Shown one piece after another: positions 19,266 through 31,800 of a DNA stretch of 33,705 bases (position 1 is its first letter; the number at the start of each line of letters is the position of its first letter). The DNA lies in the IMG/VR virus record IMGVR_UViG_3300046517_001225, positions 1 to 33,705 of that record; one strand, written 5' to 3'. The translations under genes and the position numbers were made by a program. This stretch comes from a virus. The notes beneath the pieces are model-generated. The model did not search any database. It worked only from the letters and a program-made list of their open reading frames with translations, and was not told the origin of the DNA.

Positions 19266-22200
19266 GTGTCCGATCCGCTCGTCGATTTCCAGGAGCAGCT
19301 CGCGCAGGTTCGCAACAGCGGCATGCAGCGACGCAATGTCGCGCCTGCTCCGGTGAACGTCTATGCGCAGCCGGAACCGCCGAACCCGTACGATGTCAAC
19401 ACACCGGAGAGCGAAGGCGGCGGGGCGAACCAGTTCGAGCGCGGCTTGAACGTCGGTGTGACCGACTTCACGTCGGGCATGCGCAACCTCTACGGTGTCG
19501 GTCAGGTCGCGCTAGGCAACGAGTCCGGCGCGCGCGAGACGTTCAAGCAGGCGCAGGCCGACATGGACCGCGCCAACGTGGCGGGCCCGCGCGTCGCGTC
19601 GTACAAGGACGTGCACGGCGTCGGCGACGCCGCCGACTACCTGGCTGGCCTGGCGGGCAGCAGCGTACCGATGCTGGCTACGACTTTGGTCGGGGGCGGG
19701 CTCGGCGGCGCAGTTGCCAAGGGGCTCGCGCGGCGTGGGGCGACCGCTGTGGCCGAGCGCCTGGGCGCTGCCGCCGCTGAGCGTGCCCTGGCGTCCGGGG
19801 CGACCGAAGAGGCCGCTGCCACGGCCGCTACAGCGGCCAAGGACGAGGCGCTGCCGGCCCTGGCCAAAGCTGCCGCCGATCGCCTGAAGACCGCAGGCAC
19901 GGTCGGGCACTTCGCTGGGGCTGCCGCCGCAGCCCTCCCAAGCACGGCAGCGGATGTCAGCGCGGGCGCGCTGGACGAAGGGTCACCCGACGCCCTCCCC
20001 ACAAGGGCTGCCAAGGCCCTTACTGGGGCTGCCGTCAACGCCGCCCTGATGTCCGCGCCGGCCGGCCGGCTGGTCGAGCGGATCGGGGCAGCGCCCGCCG
20101 TAGGCGAGTTGGCACAGAAGTTGCTTCCGCGCGTGGTCAAAGAGGGGCTGACCCAAGGCACGCTGATGGGTACGGTAGGGGCCGCTTCGACCGCCGTGAC
20201 CCTCGCGACGCACAAGGCGATCAACGACGCCGCGCCGAGCCTGTTGTCGAACCAGGCGTTCGACCAGTACATCAACTCGTTCGTCGGCGGCGCGATCCTG
20301 GGCGGCGTGACGGGCGGCGGCGTCGAAGGCTTGAAGGGCGTCGTAGACCCGCGCCCGCAGATCGCCGCGCGGCTGGCTCGGTTCAACGAACGCGCCGGCC
20401 AAGAACTGCCGGCCAAAGAGCCGGCGAAACCAACTGAGCCGGGCGACGACTTCAAGACGAACTTGAATGCCGCGAAGACGCACGCTGATCTCGATCTTGA
20501 CGCGCTGACGCAGCCGATCACAACGCCGCTGCGATATCCGCGCGACAACCCAGTGCAGTTCAAAGATCCGGTGCAGAATATCCTCGCCGCGCACATACCA
20601 ACTGACGCGCCGGTGTGGGAGCACCCGCAGCAGCTGCGCCCGCTGATCAAGTCAGCGGCGAAAATGTTCACCGTCGACCAGAACCTGTCGGCGCACGACT
20701 ACGTCAACGTCAACATCCTGCGCGAGTTCGTCGGCAGCCCGACGATCGACAAATGGGTCGGACTCGGACCGGAGTACGCCAAGCGCAGCGATCTGCTCAA
20801 GACGACCGACGTACCGGACGCGCCGATCGCGATGCGCCAGGTCGAAGGCGCGGCGACGGACGACACACCGAAGCGCCAGGCGCTGGTCAACGCCGTCACC
20901 GAGGCACAGCCCAACACGCGCGAGTACGGCGTAGCGAAGCGCGCGCTTCAAACCGACCTGCTTGGCGGTGCTGGCCGCTTCGTCGAGAACCGCAGCACGC
21001 CCGCGGCGCGTGATGCATTCAGTGCCAAGGCGAGCAGCCCGGAGTACGTCGAAACATCGTCTGTCGGCGTCAAGACCAAGGCCGGCGACGTGATCCAGCG
21101 GCGTCAGCTGCTGAGCTTGAGCAACCTAACCAACCGCTACATCGGTGAGCACCCCGGTGATCCGAAGGCTGCGCTCATGCACGCGCTCGCGGACCTGAAG
21201 ATCGCGCGTGTACCGATCAAGCCGGAGTCGATCACGCCGGGGAAGTTCTGGACGGCGCAGCCGGACGATCCGGTGCGGCTGACTCCCAACGACGTCAAGC
21301 AGCTGCGCGCGCAGCAGGCGACCGACTTCGCCGCGCGCAGGCCGGTGCGGCCGTCGCCGATCGAACAGCGTGCCGAAGCTGGCCTGGCGCAGCGTCAGGC
21401 TGCGGACGTCGCAGCGAAAGAGCCGCGCGGCGCCGCTGCGCCGTCCGCGTTCGCCTTCCCGCCCGAGCAGGGTACGAGCTTCGACACACTGCATTCGACC
21501 GGCGAACTCGGACGTGAACCACATGGCGTGGCGCGCGAGCTACCGCCGCAGACTGACCGCACCAGCACGCTCGGCGTGGTGCGCGACGTCAAGTTCAACC
21601 CGGACGGTACGGTCAAGGTGCGCGAGCACGATCCGCTCTCGACCAAGGCAACGGACGAGGACGTCAAAGGTACGGAGCGCGAAGTCGAAGCTCGCTACAA
21701 GAACATGATCGAAGCGCGTGGTGACAAAATTACTAAGGAGACTTCGGCTCGACTCACTAAGGACAAACTTAAACAGGAAGTTGCGAAGCTCACGCTCGAA
21801 CGCGACCAGGGTACACTCGACAAGGCACCGAACGATCGCAAGCTCAAGACGACCAAGGCGTTCTTGCGCGCCGTGGATCTCGCGCGCAGCACGCTGCCGG
21901 AAGATCATCCGTGGCGCGGTGCGATCGGCAGCGGACGCACGTCGACGACGGTAGAAAAACTGGCGCCGAAGCCTGTCTCCACGACTGAGCGTAAAGCGAC
22001 GACGCATCTATCGCGTCGCGTCAAGATGGCGTCCGAAGACAAGGCAGCGATGAAGCACGCTGCTGAGCTTGGCGTTGAGCGCAACCTAGTCAAGCCGGAG
22101 CCTGCTGTACCCGCCAAGGTCGAGCAGGCTAAGGCCGGCGCGATGGAAGAGGCCAAGGCCGGAGCCGTAGCGAAGACGGGCGGGCTGCCTGGTCGCGAAG

Positions 22201-25200
22201 GCGCGGAGACAGTCAAAGGTCAGGCCGCGATCGAAGGCAAGCGCACGACGCTCGCGCGCGGGGCAGCGACGCCTGGCGAGAAAGCTATGCCGGAAAAAGG
22301 CAAAGCTACGATCGAGCACTACGACAAGGATCTCGAAGTCGGCGTTAAGGCGATCGCCGAAGGCGAGCGCACCAGCGTGCGCACGCGCCAGCTCGACAAT
22401 GAAACACGCGTCGCGAACAAAGTGCTCGGTAAGCTGGGTGTCAAACAGTCGGTCACAGTGACGTCGGCCGCGCCGGGCGAGAGCAGCCACTACGACGCTG
22501 GCGTGATCAAGCTGGCGCCGTCGTTGAAGGGCGTAGAGCGCTTGAGCGTGCTCGCGCACGAGCTGGGTCACCACATCATCGAGCACGAGCTGGGCGAGAA
22601 CTTCGAGAAGGCCACGCCGAAGCTGCGGAGCGAACTGATCAAGGCGCACCAGGAGTGGGTCGAGAAGAACAACCGTCCCGGTCGCAACGTGTCTGATGTG
22701 CTGGCCTCGCGCAAACCGTTGGCGCGCGGCGAGGCGTTGAAAGAACGCAGCTCTGGCCAGAAAGTGCGCGACCTGTCGCCGGAGCACGCCGATTACCTGT
22801 TCAACGACATGCACGAGTTCGTCGCCGACCACATCGCGCGCGCGCTCGAAGCGCACGACACGTACCGCGGCGTCGTGGCCGAGTACTTCAAGGGGCTCGC
22901 TGCCAAGCTCAAGTTCATGTACGACTCGATCTTCGGCACCAAGGCCGGCAAACAGTACGCGGCACACCCGACCGTTGAGAAGTGGGTCAAGAGCCTATTC
23001 GATCGCAACACCAACGACGTGCGCAAGGCGTTGCGCCAGGGTGTGCCGGCCAGGCTCGCGCGTAGCATCACCAAGACGGCGGCGTTCGCCATGCAGTCGG
23101 GCAGCAAGGTGAGCGCGAAGGACTACAAGGCGTGGACGCAGTTCTACCGCTACGTGCTGACCTCGACCCAGCGCCGTATTCTCGAGCGTGCGATCACGCA
23201 GCGGCGTGTCGTGACCAACAAGTTCCGCGAGCTGTTCAGCAAGGACGCCGCGATCATGGAGCGGCTGAGCGACCCGAAGCGCGAAGGCGCGATGTCGACG
23301 TACCTGGGTTACAAGCTGTGGGCATCGGGCAAACTCAAGCTCGGGCCGCAGTCGACGGAACCAGCGCTCGCACTCAAGACGCTGCTGTTCCGCGTCGCTG
23401 GCATCGCTGGCAACAACGATGTGGCGCTCGGTATCCTGCGCGATGCGCAAACCGGCCGCGCTGCGCGCATCCGCGCGCGCGGCAACAAGTACGACCCGCT
23501 CAAGGGTAACCACCAGGTCGAAGATATCCGCAACCAGAAGGTGCAGCAGTCGTTCACCGCGGCGCAGAAGATCGCGCGCGACTACATCGTCAAGCCGCTG
23601 CGCAAGTTTGCCGGCGTGGGCGAAGCGGTGCATTACTCCGGCCTGCCGGCGATGCGCGACCTCGAACGCCGCTTCAAGCTGCATACGGGCGAAGTCGGGC
23701 GCGAGCGCGGCTACATACCCGACAAGATCGCCAACACGTCGCGCTACGTCACGCGCGGCAACGACGCGCTGGAAGGGCTGAGCGACCGCGACAAGATCGC
23801 CGTGCTCGGCCTGCTACAGACGGGTACGGTGCCGACGCCCAAGGCGAGCGGCATGAGCGCGCGCAACGTGCGAGTTCACGCCGCGGCCGAGAAACTGCGT
23901 ACGCTGTTCGACGATATGCACGACTACGCGCGGCGCAACGGCGTGCCGATCCCAAAGACGGCCAACTATTTCCCGATCGTGCCGAACTCGACGCGGGTAA
24001 AGGCGCGCAGCGCCGAGTTCAAGGCCATATTCAACCAGCCGAAGTTCGAAGCGGCGATGCGCGACAAGCTCAACGACAAGAAGTCGACGCTCGACCAGCT
24101 CGCGCAGAAGATGGTCGACGTCGCCGGCAAGGCAGCCGACTCGCGCAGGATCACCGAGTACGACCCGACCACGACGCCCGGCATGCGTGCGGCCAACCCG
24201 CGGGTGATGGACTTCATCTATAAGCTCGGCGACCAGGACGACATCGCGCGCTTCGCTCGTTTCCAGGTGAAGGACGCGCGCGACGTGATCACGCCGTACG
24301 TGCGCCAGATCGTCGCGCGCAGCGAGTACACCCGCTACTTCGGTGCGCCCAACAAGCCAGGCGAAGCGGGCTGGCGCATCAAGACGCTGATGCGCGAAGC
24401 GGAGCGCCAGGGCGCGACGCCGGCAGAACTGAAGTACATGCACGACATCGTCGCGTCGTCGCTCGGCACATACGGTATCAACGGCAGCCCGCTGCTCAAC
24501 AAGTACGCGCCGTGGCTCGGGGCCAAGCTCAACACTGAAGGCGGTAAGCTGGCGATGGACTGGGGGCTGGCGTACCAGAACGCGCGCCTGATGCCGCTGG
24601 TGCTGCTCAGCTCGGTTGGCGACCCGATGGGTATCTTCACACGCTCGGGTGGCGACTTCACTGGTATGTGGCGATCGCTGAAAGACGGCGTGAAGGCGGT
24701 CAGCGGCAAGGCAAGTGGCCAGGAGCTGCGCGATCTGTCGAAGCAGCTGGCGTTCGCTGAAGACTACATCGTCGACGACACCATGCGGACCGGCATGGCG
24801 TCAGGCGATCTGTCGCGCGGTGCGCGGAAATTCAACGACACGCTGTTCAAGCTCAACGGCATGACGTCGTTCACGCGCTACCTGCGCTACGTCGCGCTCG
24901 CCGCGGCCCAGCACCACATGCTCAAGCACGCCGATATTCTGCGCAAGACGCCGGGTAACGGCGAGTCGCTGCGCTACCTGCGCGAGCTGCACCCCGACCT
25001 CAAGCCGGCCGACGTGCGGCGTGACGCAGCCGGGCGGGTGAAGGTGCTGTCCGACGCTGAGCTGAAGAAGGCGACGCCGGCGCAGCGCGAGGCGGACGAG
25101 CGGGTGAAGGCCGGCATACTGCGTTTCGCCGATGAGTCGATCCTGCGTACCGATCCGACCCAGCACCCTATCTACCTCAACGATCCGGCGTTCGCGCTGG

Positions 25201-25655
25201 TGGGGCAGTACAAGCGCTTTGCCTACGCGTTCAACGACCAGATCCTCGATCGCATGGTGCATGAGTTCCATTATGGGAACGTGATGAAGCCGATCCTGCC
25301 AGCGGTCGGCTACGTTGGCCTGGCGGCGATGGGCGAAATGCTGCGTGGTTTCGCACAATATGGGCCTGCGGGCAACCCGACCGTGCAGGCGATGGACCCG
25401 TTGGAATACACCGAGTTCTTGACGCAGCGTGCCGGTATGCTCGGGCCGCGTGCGCAGCTCGGACTCGATACGATCGAAGGGCACAATTACGCCAGCATGG
25501 GGCACATGGACGACTTCGGCCCGACGTTCCAGCAGGCGCACGATATATTCAAGACGGCGGAAGGCGAGCGTACGCTGGGCTCGACCCTGAAAGAGTCGCT
25601 GCCAGCCGCCTCGTTGATTCGCCACACGCCATTCGGCATAGGAGCGACACCGTGA
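19266..25655 (+). CDS. Giant virion protein (2129 residues) with zincin metallopeptidase motif
   Basis: The gene starts at GTG 19266. Residues about 140-265 are Ala/Gly-rich, low-complexity and partly hydrophobic, followed by another Gly-rich hydrophobic stretch near 330-360; both could insert in a membrane during ejection. A gluzincin-type site is present: H1098-E-L-G-H1102 for zinc and catalysis, with E1184-F-V-A-D1188 as candidate third ligand and downstream Asp. This recalls metallopeptidases whose third ligand is a downstream Glu. Residues 1270-1960 are largely helical with many Arg and Lys. Residues about 1969-2030 (PIYLNDPAFALVGQYKRFAYAFND) resemble the C-terminal domain of phage large polyvalent proteins such as LPD38. 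The protein is probably packed in the capsid and ejected to open a path through, or protect DNA inside, the host envelope. Enzyme activity is unproven. An AT-rich patch at 21718-21800 interrupts otherwise GC-rich coding. Confidence 0.85.
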   Translation: MSDPLVDFQEQLAQVRNSGMQRRNVAPAPVNVYAQPEPPNPYDVNTPESEGGGANQFERGLNVGVTDFTSGMRNLYGVGQVALGNESGARETFKQAQADMDRANVAGPRVASYKDVHGVGDAADYLAGLAGSSVPMLATTLVGGGLGGAVAKGLARRGATAVAERLGAAAAERALASGATEEAAATAATAAKDEALPALAKAAADRLKTAGTVGHFAGAAAAALPSTAADVSAGALDEGSPDALPTRAAKALTGAAVNAALMSAPAGRLVERIGAAPAVGELAQKLLPRVVKEGLTQGTLMGTVGAASTAVTLATHKAINDAAPSLLSNQAFDQYINSFVGGAILGGVTGGGVEGLKGVVDPRPQIAARLARFNERAGQELPAKEPAKPTEPGDDFKTNLNAAKTHADLDLDALTQPITTPLRYPRDNPVQFKDPVQNILAAHIPTDAPVWEHPQQLRPLIKSAAKMFTVDQNLSAHDYVNVNILREFVGSPTIDKWVGLGPEYAKRSDLLKTTDVPDAPIAMRQVEGAATDDTPKRQALVNAVTEAQPNTREYGVAKRALQTDLLGGAGRFVENRSTPAARDAFSAKASSPEYVETSSVGVKTKAGDVIQRRQLLSLSNLTNRYIGEHPGDPKAALMHALADLKIARVPIKPESITPGKFWTAQPDDPVRLTPNDVKQLRAQQATDFAARRPVRPSPIEQRAEAGLAQRQAADVAAKEPRGAAAPSAFAFPPEQGTSFDTLHSTGELGREPHGVARELPPQTDRTSTLGVVRDVKFNPDGTVKVREHDPLSTKATDEDVKGTEREVEARYKNMIEARGDKITKETSARLTKDKLKQEVAKLTLERDQGTLDKAPNDRKLKTTKAFLRAVDLARSTLPEDHPWRGAIGSGRTSTTVEKLAPKPVSTTERKATTHLSRRVKMASEDKAAMKHAAELGVERNLVKPEPAVPAKVEQAKAGAMEEAKAGAVAKTGGLPGREGAETVKGQAAIEGKRTTLARGAATPGEKAMPEKGKATIEHYDKDLEVGVKAIAEGERTSVRTRQLDNETRVANKVLGKLGVKQSVTVTSAAPGESSHYDAGVIKLAPSLKGVERLSVLAHELGHHIIEHELGENFEKATPKLRSELIKAHQEWVEKNNRPGRNVSDVLASRKPLARGEALKERSSGQKVRDLSPEHADYLFNDMHEFVADHIARALEAHDTYRGVVAEYFKGLAAKLKFMYDSIFGTKAGKQYAAHPTVEKWVKSLFDRNTNDVRKALRQGVPARLARSITKTAAFAMQSGSKVSAKDYKAWTQFYRYVLTSTQRRILERAITQRRVVTNKFRELFSKDAAIMERLSDPKREGAMSTYLGYKLWASGKLKLGPQSTEPALALKTLLFRVAGIAGNNDVALGILRDAQTGRAARIRARGNKYDPLKGNHQVEDIRNQKVQQSFTAAQKIARDYIVKPLRKFAGVGEAVHYSGLPAMRDLERRFKLHTGEVGRERGYIPDKIANTSRYVTRGNDALEGLSDRDKIAVLGLLQTGTVPTPKASGMSARNVRVHAAAEKLRTLFDDMHDYARRNGVPIPKTANYFPIVPNSTRVKARSAEFKAIFNQPKFEAAMRDKLNDKKSTLDQLAQKMVDVAGKAADSRRITEYDPTTTPGMRAANPRVMDFIYKLGDQDDIARFARFQVKDARDVITPYVRQIVARSEYTRYFGAPNKPGEAGWRIKTLMREAERQGATPAELKYMHDIVASSLGTYGINGSPLLNKYAPWLGAKLNTEGGKLAMDWGLAYQNARLMPLVLLSSVGDPMGIFTRSGGDFTGMWRSLKDGVKAVSGKASGQELRDLSKQLAFAEDYIVDDTMRTGMASGDLSRGARKFNDTLFKLNGMTSFTRYLRYVALAAAQHHMLKHADILRKTPGNGESLRYLRELHPDLKPADVRRDAAGRVKVLSDAELKKATPAQREADERVKAGILRFADESILRTDPTQHPIYLNDPAFALVGQYKRFAYAFNDQILDRMVHEFHYGNVMKPILPAVGYVGLAAMGEMLRGFAQYGPAGNPTVQAMDPLEYTEFLTQRAGMLGPRAQLGLDTIEGHNYASMGHMDDFGPTFQQAHDIFKTAEGERTLGSTLKESLPAASLIRHTPFGIGATP

Positions 25656-26683: not shown

Positions 26684-26946
26684 CGGCTATATCTCTCGTT
26701 CTGTTCCTCGTCGCTCGGCGGGCTGGTCGAGAATACGCACCACCGAGAACCCTTGCGGTGTGGGAATGCGTAGCCGCAGGCTGGGTCGCGGCAAGATGGT
26801 TTCGCGCGCTCGACGGTTGGCCTGTAGCGATCGCGATACCACTTTCTTGCTCCGCATACGCATTTTGGAATCCTCACGTAGTCGTCCATGCGCCACAGCT
26901 TGCGTCGTCGCTCGCACTTGGCGCAACGATGGTGATACCTAAACAA
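26680..26946 (-). CDS. Zinc-ribbon-type small protein
   Basis: An 88-residue protein has two Cys/His sites: C8-x2-C11 with C29-x-C31, and C52-x4-C57 with H63 and C70. The first resembles a zinc ribbon. I accept TTG 26946 as start because CGGAG lies seven bases upstream and because the next ATG (26889) would remove the C8/C11 pair. It overlaps the end of the HNH gene by eight bases and the following gene as ATGA. The segment AFPHRKGSRWC with the Cys pairs recalls small phage zinc proteins found beside HNH nucleases. Role is unknown; nucleic-acid or protein binding is likely. Arg and Lys are abundant, in line with nucleic acid contact. Confidence 0.65.
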   Translation of the reverse strand: MFRYHHRCAKCERRRKLWRMDDYVRIPKCVCGARKWYRDRYRPTVERAKPSCRDPACGYAFPHRKGSRWCVFSTSPPSDEEQNERYSR

Positions 26947-27292
26947 GCTCGAACTCCGGGAACAACTCGATCTGGTCCGGATGCCAGCGGTTACCGCGCG
27001 CCTGGTTGCTTCGCTCCGGCACGACGCGCAGGTTGTCCGGCACGGTCAGTCCGCACACGGCTGGGTGACAGACTGGTATGACGTGGTCGACGACGTGCTT
27101 CACGCCGGTTGTTTTGGTCCTGCGTTTCGCCTCGGCGTAGATCGAGCGCAGCGTATCGTGGTCTACCCACGGCGGCGTCGATAGAATCACGGTAACGACG
27201 CGACGCTGCCGCGGATGTCGCTGTAGCCAGCCAGGGTAATCGCCGACCTCGATCCTGCTGCGTAGCCGACGATTGAAGATTCCCCAGCTCAT
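26939..27292 (-). CDS. HNH endonuclease
   Basis: A 117-residue protein carries the HNH signature VVDHVIPVCHPAVCGLTVPDNLRVV and RSNQARGNRW, with D69-H70, N87 and N96 as probable catalytic and metal-binding residues (N101 is an alternative). The segment between two Cys (C75 and C80) may be structural. Length suits small phage HNH enzymes that cut DNA during packaging or recombination, or act as free-standing homing enzymes. The ATG at 27292 has AGGAG six bases upstream, and that site directly follows the T-tract of a hairpin (27304-27340), so synthesis may depend on read-through. It lies far from terL, so a packaging partner role is less obvious here. Downstream it overlaps the zinc-ribbon gene. 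Confidence 0.85.
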   Translation of the reverse strand: MSWGIFNRRLRSRIEVGDYPGWLQRHPRQRRVVTVILSTPPWVDHDTLRSIYAEAKRRTKTTGVKHVVDHVIPVCHPAVCGLTVPDNLRVVPERSNQARGNRWHPDQIELFPEFELV

Positions 27293-27939: not shown

Positions 27940-29574
27940 CTAGTCAAACAGGATCTTGGATGCCTTCACGCCTTCGCGCGTCGCCACGACCAGGCGTCGC
28001 GTGTTCAAGCGGGCGATGTACGCATCGCGAGTCGAACGCTTGAACCCGGTCGCATCCGTCACACGCTCGCGATCGAGCGTCTCCGGGTACTGTGCAACGA
28101 GCACGCGCAGCACGTCCGCTTCGCCTTTCGGCAGCTTCTGCAGCCAATGGTCGCGCAGCGCCGTGCCGGTTGGTAGCGGCTTGAAGTCCAGCCCCAACGT
28201 GGTCTTTCCAGCTTCGGTCACGACGATGTGCTCAGCCACGGCATCGACCAGCCTGCGCTCGCGCAAGCGACTGATGTAAGCATCGCGCGTCGAGCGTTTG
28301 TAGCCGGTTAACACTGTGATCTGCTCGCGCGTCACGCCGTCGACGTGCTGAGCGACGGCGATCAGCACGGCGCGCTCGCCCTGCGGCAGCGCTGCTACGC
28401 TGCGCGCCAATGGTTCCGTCGCTGGGTGCAGCTTGGTTCTCGATCGCCGTCCGATCATTTCCGCGCCACGATCTGCGATCGCCTTGCGCACTTTGGGACT
28501 CAAACCAGATCCGCCATTGAGTAACTGACGGATCTGAGCGAGCAGCGTATGAGCAACGACGTCTTGAATGGGCGGATCTAGAACGACCAGACGCGTCGCT
28601 TCAGCGATGCGTCGTTGCACTTCCGCTTCCGGTACGCCCGCTTGCTCGGCGCGCTTGTTCGCCAGCGTGATCTCGCGTCGCAGTTTGGCGTTGTCCGACT
28701 TCAGCTCGTCGATCGTTCGTGCTTCGTGCTCAGCGTCTTTCTGCAGGTCGCTGAGCTTGGCCAGGCTCTTCAATATGGCTTTCGACGCGGCTGGCGGCGC
28801 GGTCATCAGGCGCGCGCCTGGACGCGGGTGTGTCGTGACGACGCTACCGATCTTGATCGACCGCACCGTGTCGGACAACGCAGGCCCGAACACATAGAAC
28901 GAGCCGGGCTTGAGTTCGCGCAGCTGCTTGACCGCGTCGCGCGACGACATGCCCAGCTCGTCGGCGGCGCGCTTTACGTCGACATCGAGCCCGGTGCGGC
29001 CGATCATCTTGTTCAGCAGCTCCGCAGCGACGTCCTTGTGCAGCTTCGACAGCCGCTGCGTCGCACAGCAGAGTGCGAAGCCGCGCTTGCGCCCACGCGT
29101 TGCCAGGTCGATCACCGACTGGCTCGCTTCGGCGCTGCCCGACTGCGGGCAGAAAACGTGCGCTTCGTCCAGCACAACCAGGACTGGACGCCACAGCTCG
29201 CGCGGCGCATTGATCAGCGCTTCGAGGAACAGGCGAACGAAGGTCTGCCGCTCGTACGACTTTAGGTCGTAGATATTGAGGATCGCCGACACGCCCGCTT
29301 CGAGCAGCCGGCGTGCGAGCAGCGCAGCCGTCTTCGGCGTAGCCAACGCATCGCCGTCGTGCGGCGCGCAGATGACATAGTCAAACTTCTCGCGTAGCGT
29401 GGCGAACTCGCCTTCGGAGTCGATGACGAACTGCTGCACCATCGGCGCCGTCTGTTCGAGCAGGCGGCGCAGCGCGAACGACTTGCCGCCGCCAGAGTTG
29501 GCCTGCACCAGCAGCCGAGTCTCGAGCAGGATCGGCACATGGACGTCGAGCTTGCCGTCAAGGGTCGGCTTCAT
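27940..29574 (-). CDS. HerA/DUF87-like ATPase with tandem C-terminal winged-helix-like repeats
   Basis: This 544-residue protein has Walker A at residues 25-32 (ANSGGGKS) and Walker B with D136-E137 (LVVLDEAH). These are followed by a conserved TRGRKRGFALCCATQRL segment, the layout of HerA/FtsK-type or DUF87 ring ATPases that move along DNA. A charged coiled coil lies at about 270-320. The C-terminus has two homologous helix-turn-helix-like repeats centred on KRSTRDAYI at 426 and 512, followed by RLxxRRLV, 86 residues apart. In phages such ATPases are thought to act in DNA processing or to partner nucleases, but no NurA gene is seen beside it. The ATG at 29574 overlaps the upstream stop (ATGA). 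Gene order with nuclease and Cys-rich proteins suggests DNA metabolism. Substrate and polarity are unknown. Confidence 0.85.
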   Translation of the reverse strand: MKPTLDGKLDVHVPILLETRLLVQANSGGGKSFALRRLLEQTAPMVQQFVIDSEGEFATLREKFDYVICAPHDGDALATPKTAALLARRLLEAGVSAILNIYDLKSYERQTFVRLFLEALINAPRELWRPVLVVLDEAHVFCPQSGSAEASQSVIDLATRGRKRGFALCCATQRLSKLHKDVAAELLNKMIGRTGLDVDVKRAADELGMSSRDAVKQLRELKPGSFYVFGPALSDTVRSIKIGSVVTTHPRPGARLMTAPPAASKAILKSLAKLSDLQKDAEHEARTIDELKSDNAKLRREITLANKRAEQAGVPEAEVQRRIAEATRLVVLDPPIQDVVAHTLLAQIRQLLNGGSGLSPKVRKAIADRGAEMIGRRSRTKLHPATEPLARSVAALPQGERAVLIAVAQHVDGVTREQITVLTGYKRSTRDAYISRLRERRLVDAVAEHIVVTEAGKTTLGLDFKPLPTGTALRDHWLQKLPKGEADVLRVLVAQYPETLDRERVTDATGFKRSTRDAYIARLNTRRLVVATREGVKASKILFD

Positions 29575-29972
29575 GACAACTGATATCCTTCAATCATGAT
29601 CTGCGTTTCGGCGATAGTCACTCGCTCGATTGCTTCCTGCCGAGTCATCTTGGCGTGCGCGAGCTGCTCGTCCGACGCATTGAGATACCAATGCGCAGCG
29701 CGAGCATATGCCTGGAAGAGCTCCAAGATGCGGATCTGCTCTTCATTATTGGCTCTCCAACGCTCGTAGCGTTCGTCCGGTGACAATCTGGCGCGTAACT
29801 CAGCTTCAGCACGATCGAGCTTGCGACGCAGTCGGCGCGACCCCTTGTTCGCCGCATGCAGTTCGTGAAACCACTGACCTGCGTGTTCGAGCCGCTTGTG
29901 CAGGCCGGTGATGATGCCAACGTACTCGCCCAGCTTCGCTAAGTATTGTTCGGAAATCGACAGTTCGGTCAT
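29571..29972 (-). CDS. Helical hypothetical protein preceding the ATPase
   Basis: A 133-residue protein starts at ATG 29972 overlapping the previous stop (ATGA), and its own stop overlaps the ATPase start (ATGA). It is almost entirely helical and rich in Arg, Glu, Ala and Leu. Basic and acidic stretches alternate (SRRLRRKLDRAEAELRARLSPDERYERW) in a way typical of a coiled coil or helical bundle. No cysteine pair, membrane segment or catalytic motif is visible. Tight coupling to the ATPase suggests a partner or regulator of it, but the family is unknown to me. Confidence 0.7.
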   Translation of the reverse strand: MTELSISEQYLAKLGEYVGIITGLHKRLEHAGQWFHELHAANKGSRRLRRKLDRAEAELRARLSPDERYERWRANNEEQIRILELFQAYARAAHWYLNASDEQLAHAKMTRQEAIERVTIAETQIMIEGYQLS

Positions 29973-30403
29973 ACGAATTTTCCTGGTTCGATTTGGCCAA
30001 GTTCTACGAGGCGACGATGCGCAGCATCTTGCCGCCGATAGTCAGGACCGACGTTCGCCTGGCACATTTCCTTCCACGCTTCGCCGATCTCCTGTAGCTC
30101 CTGCAGCTCCGTTTCGTAGTCGAGCGCCGGCTGATGGGTATGCACGACAGGCGCGTTGTCTTTTACGTAAACCGTACGCGTCGCCCAATCTGCCCACTGG
30201 CTTACGACGCCGCTCTTCCAAGCCAGGCGCGCTCCCATGAACGCGGCGATCCGCGAGCGAGCGCGCTGGTACCACTCCAGCGCGCTCGCCTCGTGCTCAG
30301 CTGATGGATCGGCGCAAGCCCGCAGCGTGCGCTGTGCATAGCGCACCAGCGCCCACCCAGCCTGCTCAAGCTGCTTCGCCGCTTCGTAACGCAGAACGTC
30401 CAT
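29969..30403 (-). CDS. Helical hypothetical protein, function unknown
   Basis: I chose ATG 30403, which forms a TAATG overlap with the preceding stop; a longer frame starts at non-ATG codons inside the upstream gene. The 144-residue product is mainly helical and Ala/Glu/Arg-rich, with aromatic residues in the middle (AWKSGVVSQWADWATRTVYVK). No conserved motif is recognised. It is one of two helical proteins between the Acb2-like gene and the ATPase, and the three genes are coupled, so a shared role in early infection is possible. Confidence 0.65.
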   Translation of the reverse strand: MDVLRYEAAKQLEQAGWALVRYAQRTLRACADPSAEHEASALEWYQRARSRIAAFMGARLAWKSGVVSQWADWATRTVYVKDNAPVVHTHQPALDYETELQELQEIGEAWKEMCQANVGPDYRRQDAAHRRLVELGQIEPGKFV

Positions 30404-30630
30404 TACGTATGCAGCTCGGGCTCGTTGCACGCGATCGACAAGTTCGCCGCCATGACCGTATCGCGCAGCTTGCGAATCGCTACGGTCTGGTCAGGACAAC
30501 TCGGCGTGTTGTGCAGGATGATCAGGGCGAAATCGCGCGCCGCGTCGCGAATCGTCTTGTAGCGTTTAATCTGGTCCGGCGTCGGGCTGTGGTACTTGAA
30601 CCAGTTGTCGATGTCGTCGATGTCGATCAT
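30403..30630 (-). CDS. acb2: Acb2/Tad1-type cyclic-nucleotide sponge (anti-CBASS/anti-Thoeris protein)
   Basis: A 75-residue protein starts at ATG 30630, with GAGG seven bases upstream. It matches the Acb2/Tad1 hairpin family as I recall it. There is an N-terminal Y13-H14-S-P-T with Q20, then Y24..I27-R28 and a helical A-x-x-F-A segment. A Pro/Asp loop (TPSCPDQT) follows, then AIRKLR and the ending VMAANLSIACNE (residues 59-70). This spacing, and the ending AN..IA(C/R)NE, are distinctive of phage proteins such as T4 Vs.4 and Acb2 of Pseudomonas phages. Family members form multimers that bind and sequester CBASS cyclic di- and trinucleotides, and some also bind Thoeris gcADPR signals. Context is an early operon of small proteins, as expected for a counter-defence gene. 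Ligand is unproven. Confidence 0.82.
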   Translation of the reverse strand: MIDIDDIDNWFKYHSPTPDQIKRYKTIRDAARDFALIILHNTPSCPDQTVAIRKLRDTVMAANLSIACNEPELHT

Positions 30631-30914
30631 GGTAGAACCTCGCGAACGTGGATTACTGTTGGGATTGGACCGTCGCATTCGACAAACGCCCCTGCGCTCC
30701 ACGGACGAACGATTGCCTCGCGGCGATCGTCAAACATGAAGATGGCAAACTCGCGCGGCTCGCGGACGACCTGGTATTCGTAGTCAACGAAGTTCCAAGC
30801 CGCTTTGTTGTGGCGGTTCCACGACGTCCATTCCCTACCGCCTTTGTGTCGCCAAGCTACTTTCTCGCCACGCTCGAACGCCTGGATGATGCTGATGATC
30901 TCCTGGTTGTTCAT
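30627..30914 (-). CDS. Small conserved phage protein, function unknown
   Basis: A 95-residue protein starts at ATG 30914 (TAATG overlap with the preceding stop) and ends overlapping the Acb2-like start as ATGA. The order EIISIIQAFERGEKVAWRHKGG, then WNRHNKAAWNFVDYEYQV, then PREFAIFMFDDRREAI recalls a widespread family of small phage proteins. In that family IxAFxxGxxVxxR and WxF.xYxYRV..EPREF blocks recur. I cannot give a function. No metal site or membrane segment is present. Its coupling to the Acb2-like gene is worth noting because small phage proteins of unknown function often cluster with counter-defence genes. Confidence 0.72.
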   Translation of the reverse strand: MNNQEIISIIQAFERGEKVAWRHKGGREWTSWNRHNKAAWNFVDYEYQVVREPREFAIFMFDDRREAIVRPWSAGAFVECDGPIPTVIHVREVLP

Positions 30915-31120
30915 TAAGTCACCTTCTCGAAGCGTTGGGCCATTTCGTATACACCGATTCTTTGCACGATGACAACCTTGTCGCCATCGCTAAAACTGCC
31001 GTCGTCTAGCGCAGCTTGAAGCGCTTCCTCGGCGGTAGAAAACCCGCCAGTTTCGTCGAACTTGTTATACGAAAAATAAGCGAACAGCTTCTCGCTGGTG
31101 GAACCTTTCCGCGCGGCCAT
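30914..31120 (-). CDS. Small hypothetical protein
   Basis: A 68-residue protein with ATG at 31120, one base after the preceding stop, and a TAATG overlap at its end with the next gene. The N-terminal 10 residues are basic (MAARKGSTSEK). The body is mixed alpha/beta (FAYFSYNKFDETGGFSTAEEALQ), acidic in the middle (ALDDGSFSDGDKVVIVQ), and ends basic (YEMAQRFEKVT). No family recognised. Two coupled neighbours on each side make a real gene likely. Confidence 0.65.
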   Translation of the reverse strand: MAARKGSTSEKLFAYFSYNKFDETGGFSTAEEALQAALDDGSFSDGDKVVIVQRIGVYEMAQRFEKVT

Positions 31121-31121
31121 G

Positions 31122-31310
31122 TCAGGCGCAGTTCTTGTTGAGCCACGCCACTAGTTCGAGTTTCTTGGTCGGCACTTCGACCTGCTCAGTCGACGGCGCC
31201 AAGCCTTCCGAACGCATCGCCTTGCGCACCTTGCCGGCGCTCTCGCCGCTATGTGACCACTGTGCCGGCTCGGTCGGCTGCTTCGTCGACTTCGTACGAT
31301 AGAGCTTCAT
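31122..31310 (-). CDS. Small basic hypothetical protein
   Basis: A 62-residue protein with ATG 31310 and AGGAG nine bases upstream. It is basic and polar, with KLYRTKSTKQPTEPAQWSHSG at the start and VPTKKLELVAWLNKNC at the end, and a Cys two residues from the C-terminus. Its start overlaps the stop of a possible 18-residue mini-gene (ATGA). No family recognised. Confidence 0.65.
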   Translation of the reverse strand: MKLYRTKSTKQPTEPAQWSHSGESAGKVRKAMRSEGLAPSTEQVEVPTKKLELVAWLNKNCA

Positions 31311-31365: not shown

Positions 31366-31800
31366 CTAACGATTGGAGCAGTCGCAACAGAATTCTCGAA
31401 TCCACTTTGCCGCTTCCGCGACTGAAGTTGCCTCGCATATCGCAGTGCCTCCAAGCCACTGCGCCGGCTCGATCTGGATAACGACCAGCGCGGTACGTTT
31501 GTGCGGTATACCCACCATGACCGCGGCGTTCCTGCCGTGCTCCCAGCGCCGCATAAGCCACTTTTCCTGCAGCACCGACAGTTCACCCTGCCGGCGTTCA
31601 CGCTTCTCCTGTGGAATGACGCGCACGACGCCGCTGCGCGGACGGTGTTCGAGCATCTTGTACTCGACCCACAGATCCGACTTCTCGCCGTCGTAGTACT
31701 GGTCGGGCGTGCCGTTGCTATACATGGCAGCTCCCGCCTGGTGATACAGCCCAGGCGGGAGCTTGCGATGCACGGCCTGCCTTAGCGCCGACTCGAGCAC
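31366..31800 (-). CDS. PD-(D/E)xK nuclease (VRR-NUC-like)
   Basis: A 144-residue protein starts at GTG 31800 immediately after the preceding stop (TAAGTG). The active-site order fits a restriction-like nuclease: HRKLP near residues 11-15, then G30-T-P32-D33, and E46-Y-K48 in a predicted strand (LWVEYKML). These supply the Asp, Glu and Lys of the PD-(D/E)xK core. The C-terminal half (AVMVGIPHKRTALVVIQIE) looks like the rest of the alpha/beta fold. Length is close to VRR-NUC-type phage enzymes, which cut structured or damaged DNA, but Holliday-junction-type or other roles are possible. It lies in the same operon as a HerA-like ATPase, which fits DNA processing. Catalysis is not shown. Confidence 0.78.
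   Translation of the reverse strand: MLESALRQAVHRKLPPGLYHQAGAAMYSNGTPDQYYDGEKSDLWVEYKMLEHRPRSGVVRVIPQEKRERRQGELSVLQEKWLMRRWEHGRNAAVMVGIPHKRTALVVIQIEPAQWLGGTAICEATSVAEAAKWIREFCCDCSNR

Follow-up and report, generated by a model that had tools for sequence, protein, structure and literature searches.

The window, that is, the whole stretch of 33,705 nucleotides analysed here, is a 33.7-kb virus fragment that carries on its minus strand a short open reading frame with a start codon ATG at 30630-30628 and a stop codon TAA at 30405-30403. The original prediction placed a 75-residue product at this position; the reading frame is real, and every motif quoted at the time is present in its translation, MIDIDDIDNWFKYHSPTPDQIKRYKTIRDAARDFALIILHNTPSCPDQTVAIRKLRDTVMAANLSIACNEPELHT. 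The start codon overlaps the stop codon of the preceding gene within ATGA (30630-30627), and the stop codon overlaps the start codon of the next gene within TAATG (30405-30401), both overlaps being read directly from the sequence. Because start and stop codons overlap on both sides, we consider this a real gene, translationally coupled to its two neighbours as had been proposed. A reading of 30403-30630 on the plus strand was also considered and rejected, the minus frame being backed by homologues. A scan for promoters and terminators gave signals no more than those obtained in shuffled sequences. The features of the region are collected in Table 1.

Table 1. Genes of the putative sponge locus and of its borders, in window coordinates.
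Feature	Coordinates	Strand	Evidence and remarks
Nuclease-like conserved gene	31366-31800	minus	Motif NGTPDQYYDG...LWVEYK; PHROG 2165, E 1.2e-6; no Pfam match
62-aa gene of the small-gene run	31122..31310	minus	No family in Pfam or PHROG
68-aa gene of the small-gene run	30914..31120	minus	No family in Pfam or PHROG
95-aa gene immediately upstream, its stop overlapping the start of the putative sponge gene in ATGA	30627..30914	minus	Weak match to phrog_21668 (unknown function), E 1.1e-6
Acb2-like putative sponge gene, 75 aa	30403..30630	minus	Pfam PF24729, AlphaFold2, alignment, tree
144-aa gene immediately downstream, its start overlapping the stop of the putative sponge gene in TAATG	29969..30403	minus	No family in Pfam or PHROG
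133-aa gene, short overlaps on both sides	29571..29972	minus	No family in Pfam or PHROG
HerA/DUF87-like ATPase, 544 aa	27940-29574	minus	PADLOC mad8 and HerA models, best E 2.2e-13

The gene sits among overlapping small genes between the conserved nuclease-like gene, whose motif looks like a VRR-NUC-type nuclease core, and the HerA-like ATPase gene. These small genes are tightly packed between 31310 and 29571 and lead on into the ATPase gene. Among cultured phages, the terminase is closest to those of KPP25-like Pseudomonas phages, at about 40% identity, and a megablast search with the first 25 kb of the record returned no cultured relative. Related environmental phages were found via the capsid and via the ATPase. 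Four of them (G001, G002, G003, and G005) retain genes of the block 33398-31366. In none of the four do the genes beyond the nuclease-like gene resemble the window's small genes, so that the nuclease-like gene borders a variable cargo interval. In G005 this gene and the ATPase gene lie about 370 bases apart, and in the window the gap of about 1.8 kb holds six small genes. The sponge family was found in none of the 11 related records, which may be fragments. Since four related phages have other content in this interval and none of these 11 records yielded the family, the gene is probably accessory cargo of this phage. The interval is also a place where further counter-defence genes of this phage group may be looked for.

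The original prediction had left the genes at 30627-31310 and 29571-30403 without a role, and searches of Pfam, PHROG, and PADLOC indeed gave no useful assignment for them. The products of the two genes that directly adjoin the putative sponge gene have no match in cultured phages. That these neighbours are counter-defence genes, as had been suggested, is only plausible and is favoured solely by their position in the variable interval. No partner gene was identified, because none of the window's neighbours recurs beside the relatives of the 75-residue protein and the neighbours that do recur do so only within small sets of related phages. Elsewhere in the record, a small HNH/endonuclease VII-like gene lies at 26939-27292 on the minus strand (PHROG 1035, E 7.2e-7; PHROG 26577, E 2.2e-22). 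The ATPase seems to end in two repeated winged-helix-like segments (GYKRSTRDAYISRL and GFKRSTRDAYIARL), and its relatives occur in two cultured-phage records only, but in 42 IMG/VR ones. On the plus strand, a very long open reading frame of 2129 aa (19266-25655) ends the virion gene block; its product contains a metallopeptidase-like HELGHH motif and is probably a large internal virion protein.

The 75-residue protein matches Pfam PF24729, the Acb2/Tad1 hairpin domain, over the full length of the profile (positions 1-58 of 58) with an E-value of 3.9e-11 and a score of 43.4 bits, for a curated cut-off of 27 bits. It also matches PHROG 1454 (E 3.8e-15). The family is present in a single copy across the whole 33.7-kb record, and a search of 14 control genomes found no match. 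A search of cultured phages at an E limit of 1 gave relatives in 101 records, mainly of Paenibacillus, Gordonia, and Mycobacterium phages, and all 51 aligned relatives match PF24729. The nearest cultured-phage relative is gp101 of Tunturiibacter phage Tunturi_1 (PP887698), annotated as hypothetical, with 52% identity over 63 residues; none of the window's neighbouring genes adjoins it. A scan of IMG/VR viral contigs with the window protein itself as query returned no relatives, and with the Tunturi_1 protein as query 64 loci encoding a relative were collected. Two scans of a bacterial and archaeal genome collection with narrow patterns found no member of the family, a result too limited to speak against its carriage by prophages.

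The AlphaFold2 model, built from an alignment of 51 sequences, has a mean pLDDT of 90.2, with helices predicted at residues 4-10, 21-41, and 46-68. Acb2 consists of one short N-terminal helix followed by two long antiparallel helices (PMC10419184, PMC12043709), and the predicted helices of the window protein follow this layout. Searching the PDB with the single sequence gave chance matches only and no solved relative, so that a profile was required; a profile of nine relatives matched “Acb2 homolog 43” (9ptq) with an E-value of 9.9e-5 and, more weakly, T4 Vs.4 (7uq2) and several Tad1 chains. With Foldseek, T4 Vs.4 ranks first among PDB entries, but weakly (E 0.93), and VIA-align Z-scores of 5.9 (7uq2) and 5.2 (8h2x) lie within the range of unrelated helical hairpins. 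No solved Tad1 chain came up in the structure search, from which we draw no conclusion. Among predicted viral structures, the top matches are mostly “Acb2/Tad1 hairpin domain” proteins, with a probability of about 1.0. Hence, the fold search, based on a predicted model, agrees with Acb2 but gives no proof. Altogether, the PF24729 score, the profile match to 9ptq, and the confident three-helix model confirm the Acb2/Tad1 family membership put forward in the original prediction.

Within this family, the predicted layout of the protein points to Acb2. T4 Acb2 (Vs.4, 7uq2) and Pseudomonas phage Acb2 (8h2x; p26 entries, for example 8ixz) have the same helix layout and are likewise encoded by a small stand-alone phage gene. 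The sequence resemblance to characterised Acb2 proteins is remote, with 22% identity in the Foldseek alignment with T4 Acb2, and the loop between the long helices is shorter in the window protein than in T4 Acb2. Homolog 43, the best profile match among solved structures, is also a stand-alone hairpin, of 76 residues. Tad1 (7uav, 8kbb, and others) has the hairpin family in common with the window protein. However, in Tad1 the two long helices are preceded by a beta-sheet region, and loops of this N-terminal region contribute to the cADPR pocket (PMC12043709); no strand is found in the model of the 75-residue protein. Because this antiparallel beta-sheet region is absent, the protein is Acb2-like rather than Tad1-like.

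Judging from the alignment, the pocket-type residues of the window protein are F11, Y13, H14, R28, and N63. The profile alignment pairs T4 Y8 with Y13 and T4 K23 with R28, a tyrosine and a basic residue 15 positions further on being therefore common to both proteins. The basic residue 15 positions after T4 Y8 presumably has a role in Acb2 binding, and the spacing of Y11 and K26, which we take to be pocket residues of Pseudomonas Acb2, agrees with that of Y13 and R28. F11, Y13, R28, and N63 are conserved in 58-59 of 59 distinct sequences. The Y8A mutant of T4 Acb2 is described as deficient in binding (PMC12657230). In homolog 43, the position aligned to Y13 does not carry a tyrosine. From the spacing of the long helices, we estimate that Y24, R28, N63, and the Y13 segment would sit at the hairpin's open end.

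A maximum likelihood tree of the 59 distinct sequences, drawn from 65 columns only and with many open forks, separates the sampled family into two clades with a support of 100/98, and despite the short alignment this split is firm. The clades differ at positions 46, 47, 53, 56, 61, and 68 (window numbering). The 18 sequences of clade A read R-E-T-E-(mostly W)-R, apart from one that departs at 46 and 53, and the 41 sequences of clade B read A/P-D-R-R-T-(mostly L or C). Going from clade A to clade B, R46 is changed to A/P, T53 to R, E56 to R, W61 to T, and R68 to L/C. The window protein belongs to clade B, as does Tunturi_1 gp101. It branches beside a relative from locus L032 (97/91) on a long branch, carries P46, D47, R53, R56, A61, and C68, and has departures of its own at P46, A61, and L64. 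In contrast, the 9ptq protein, with its GREKS..TKLEEA helix-2 motif, and the matched stretch of Tad1 have a clade-A-like pattern, and no solved clade-B structure was found in the PDB profile search. Along helix 2, the switched positions recur at roughly heptad spacing, which would place them at a subunit interface or at the central site. We infer that these coordinated changes affect either the contact between subunits or the second (trinucleotide) site, and that ligand preference may shift as a result. Binding is thus not transferable with certainty to clade B, because six helix-2 positions differ from the clade that is nearer to the solved proteins.

By homology with Acb2, the best supported function is that of a stoichiometric sponge that would sequester CBASS-type cyclic oligonucleotides, and we hold this to be probable. 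The protein would be made during infection from the operon of small genes, if its expression time follows that of characterised relatives. It would most likely assemble as a hexamer and tightly bind the cyclic oligonucleotides produced by host CBASS enzymes; with the signal sequestered, CBASS effectors would stay off and the infected cell would not abort. In characterised Acb2, one hexamer binds three 3',3'-cGAMP and two cyclic trinucleotides at separate sites (for a review see PMC12043709). The original prediction had left the choice between cyclic-nucleotide and TIR-derived signals. The sponge family stands through PF24729; the TIR-derived part has become less likely and CBASS-type cyclic oligonucleotides are the likelier targets, since the Tad1 beta-sheet region is lacking. 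For the same reason, an anti-Thoeris sponge of the Tad1 type, directed at cADPR-type signals, appears improbable: Acb2 and Tad1 hairpins are indeed grouped in one Pfam family and short helix-2 profile matches to Tad1 chains are obtained, but the window protein has 75 residues, all helical, and the cADPR pocket of Tad1 uses loops of its beta-sheet region. Even more improbable would be a phage protein that resembles Acb2 in fold only and serves another purpose, such as a regulatory or structural one. Helical hairpins are widespread, and scores from structure comparison alone do not discriminate between them; this reading is nevertheless opposed by a curated sequence family matched well above its cut-off, by pocket-type residues that are nearly invariant, and by the scattered occurrence of the family in gene settings that are not linked.

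A special case of the sponge reading, whose likelihood overlaps with that of the general one, is that clade B keeps the fold and binds another signal through the rebuilt strip of helix 2, with two added arginines per subunit. The signal could, for example, be cyclic trinucleotides only, larger cyclic oligoadenylates, or a cADPR isomer. A clade-bound switch at six positions, seen in 41 vs. 18 distinct sequences with a support of 100/98, and a clade for which the PDB profile search found no solved structure speak for such a change; however, the residues aligned with the known dinucleotide pocket are unchanged in clade B and the switch may merely repack the subunit interface, so that we regard a changed specificity as a tentative option, rather unlikely at present. 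That clade B as a whole is a functionally distinct sponge type, in which the rewiring of helix 2 makes a different oligomer or a different site binding more anionic ligands, is doubtful. If it were true, environmental phages would gain a sponge for a signal outside the binding range of known Acb2 proteins.

Under the preferred reading, an Acb2-like sponge for CBASS-type signals, clade B adds dozens of environmental phage proteins to a counter-defence family with few characterised members, and cultured members exist in Tunturi_1, a phage of an acidobacterium, and in the mycobacteriophage ScoobyDoobyDoo. Clade B with its rebuilt helix 2 is the part of the finding worth testing, and the six clade-bound positions are ready targets for studying how sponge specificity evolves.

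The acb2 gene is already annotated in cluster-EG Microbacterium phages (PMC13348362), so that naming genes of this kind is turning into routine. The label “phosphomannomutase” is given to relatives in Paenibacillus and Brevibacillus phages (records H3-H7, H14-H16, and H25; for example, L004 289-504), which is almost certainly a propagated misannotation. Finally, gp210 of Mycobacterium phage ScoobyDoobyDoo (L003 280-723) combines a clade-B sponge domain with a C-terminal extension of ~75 residues, and a related protein of Phabba has 142 residues.
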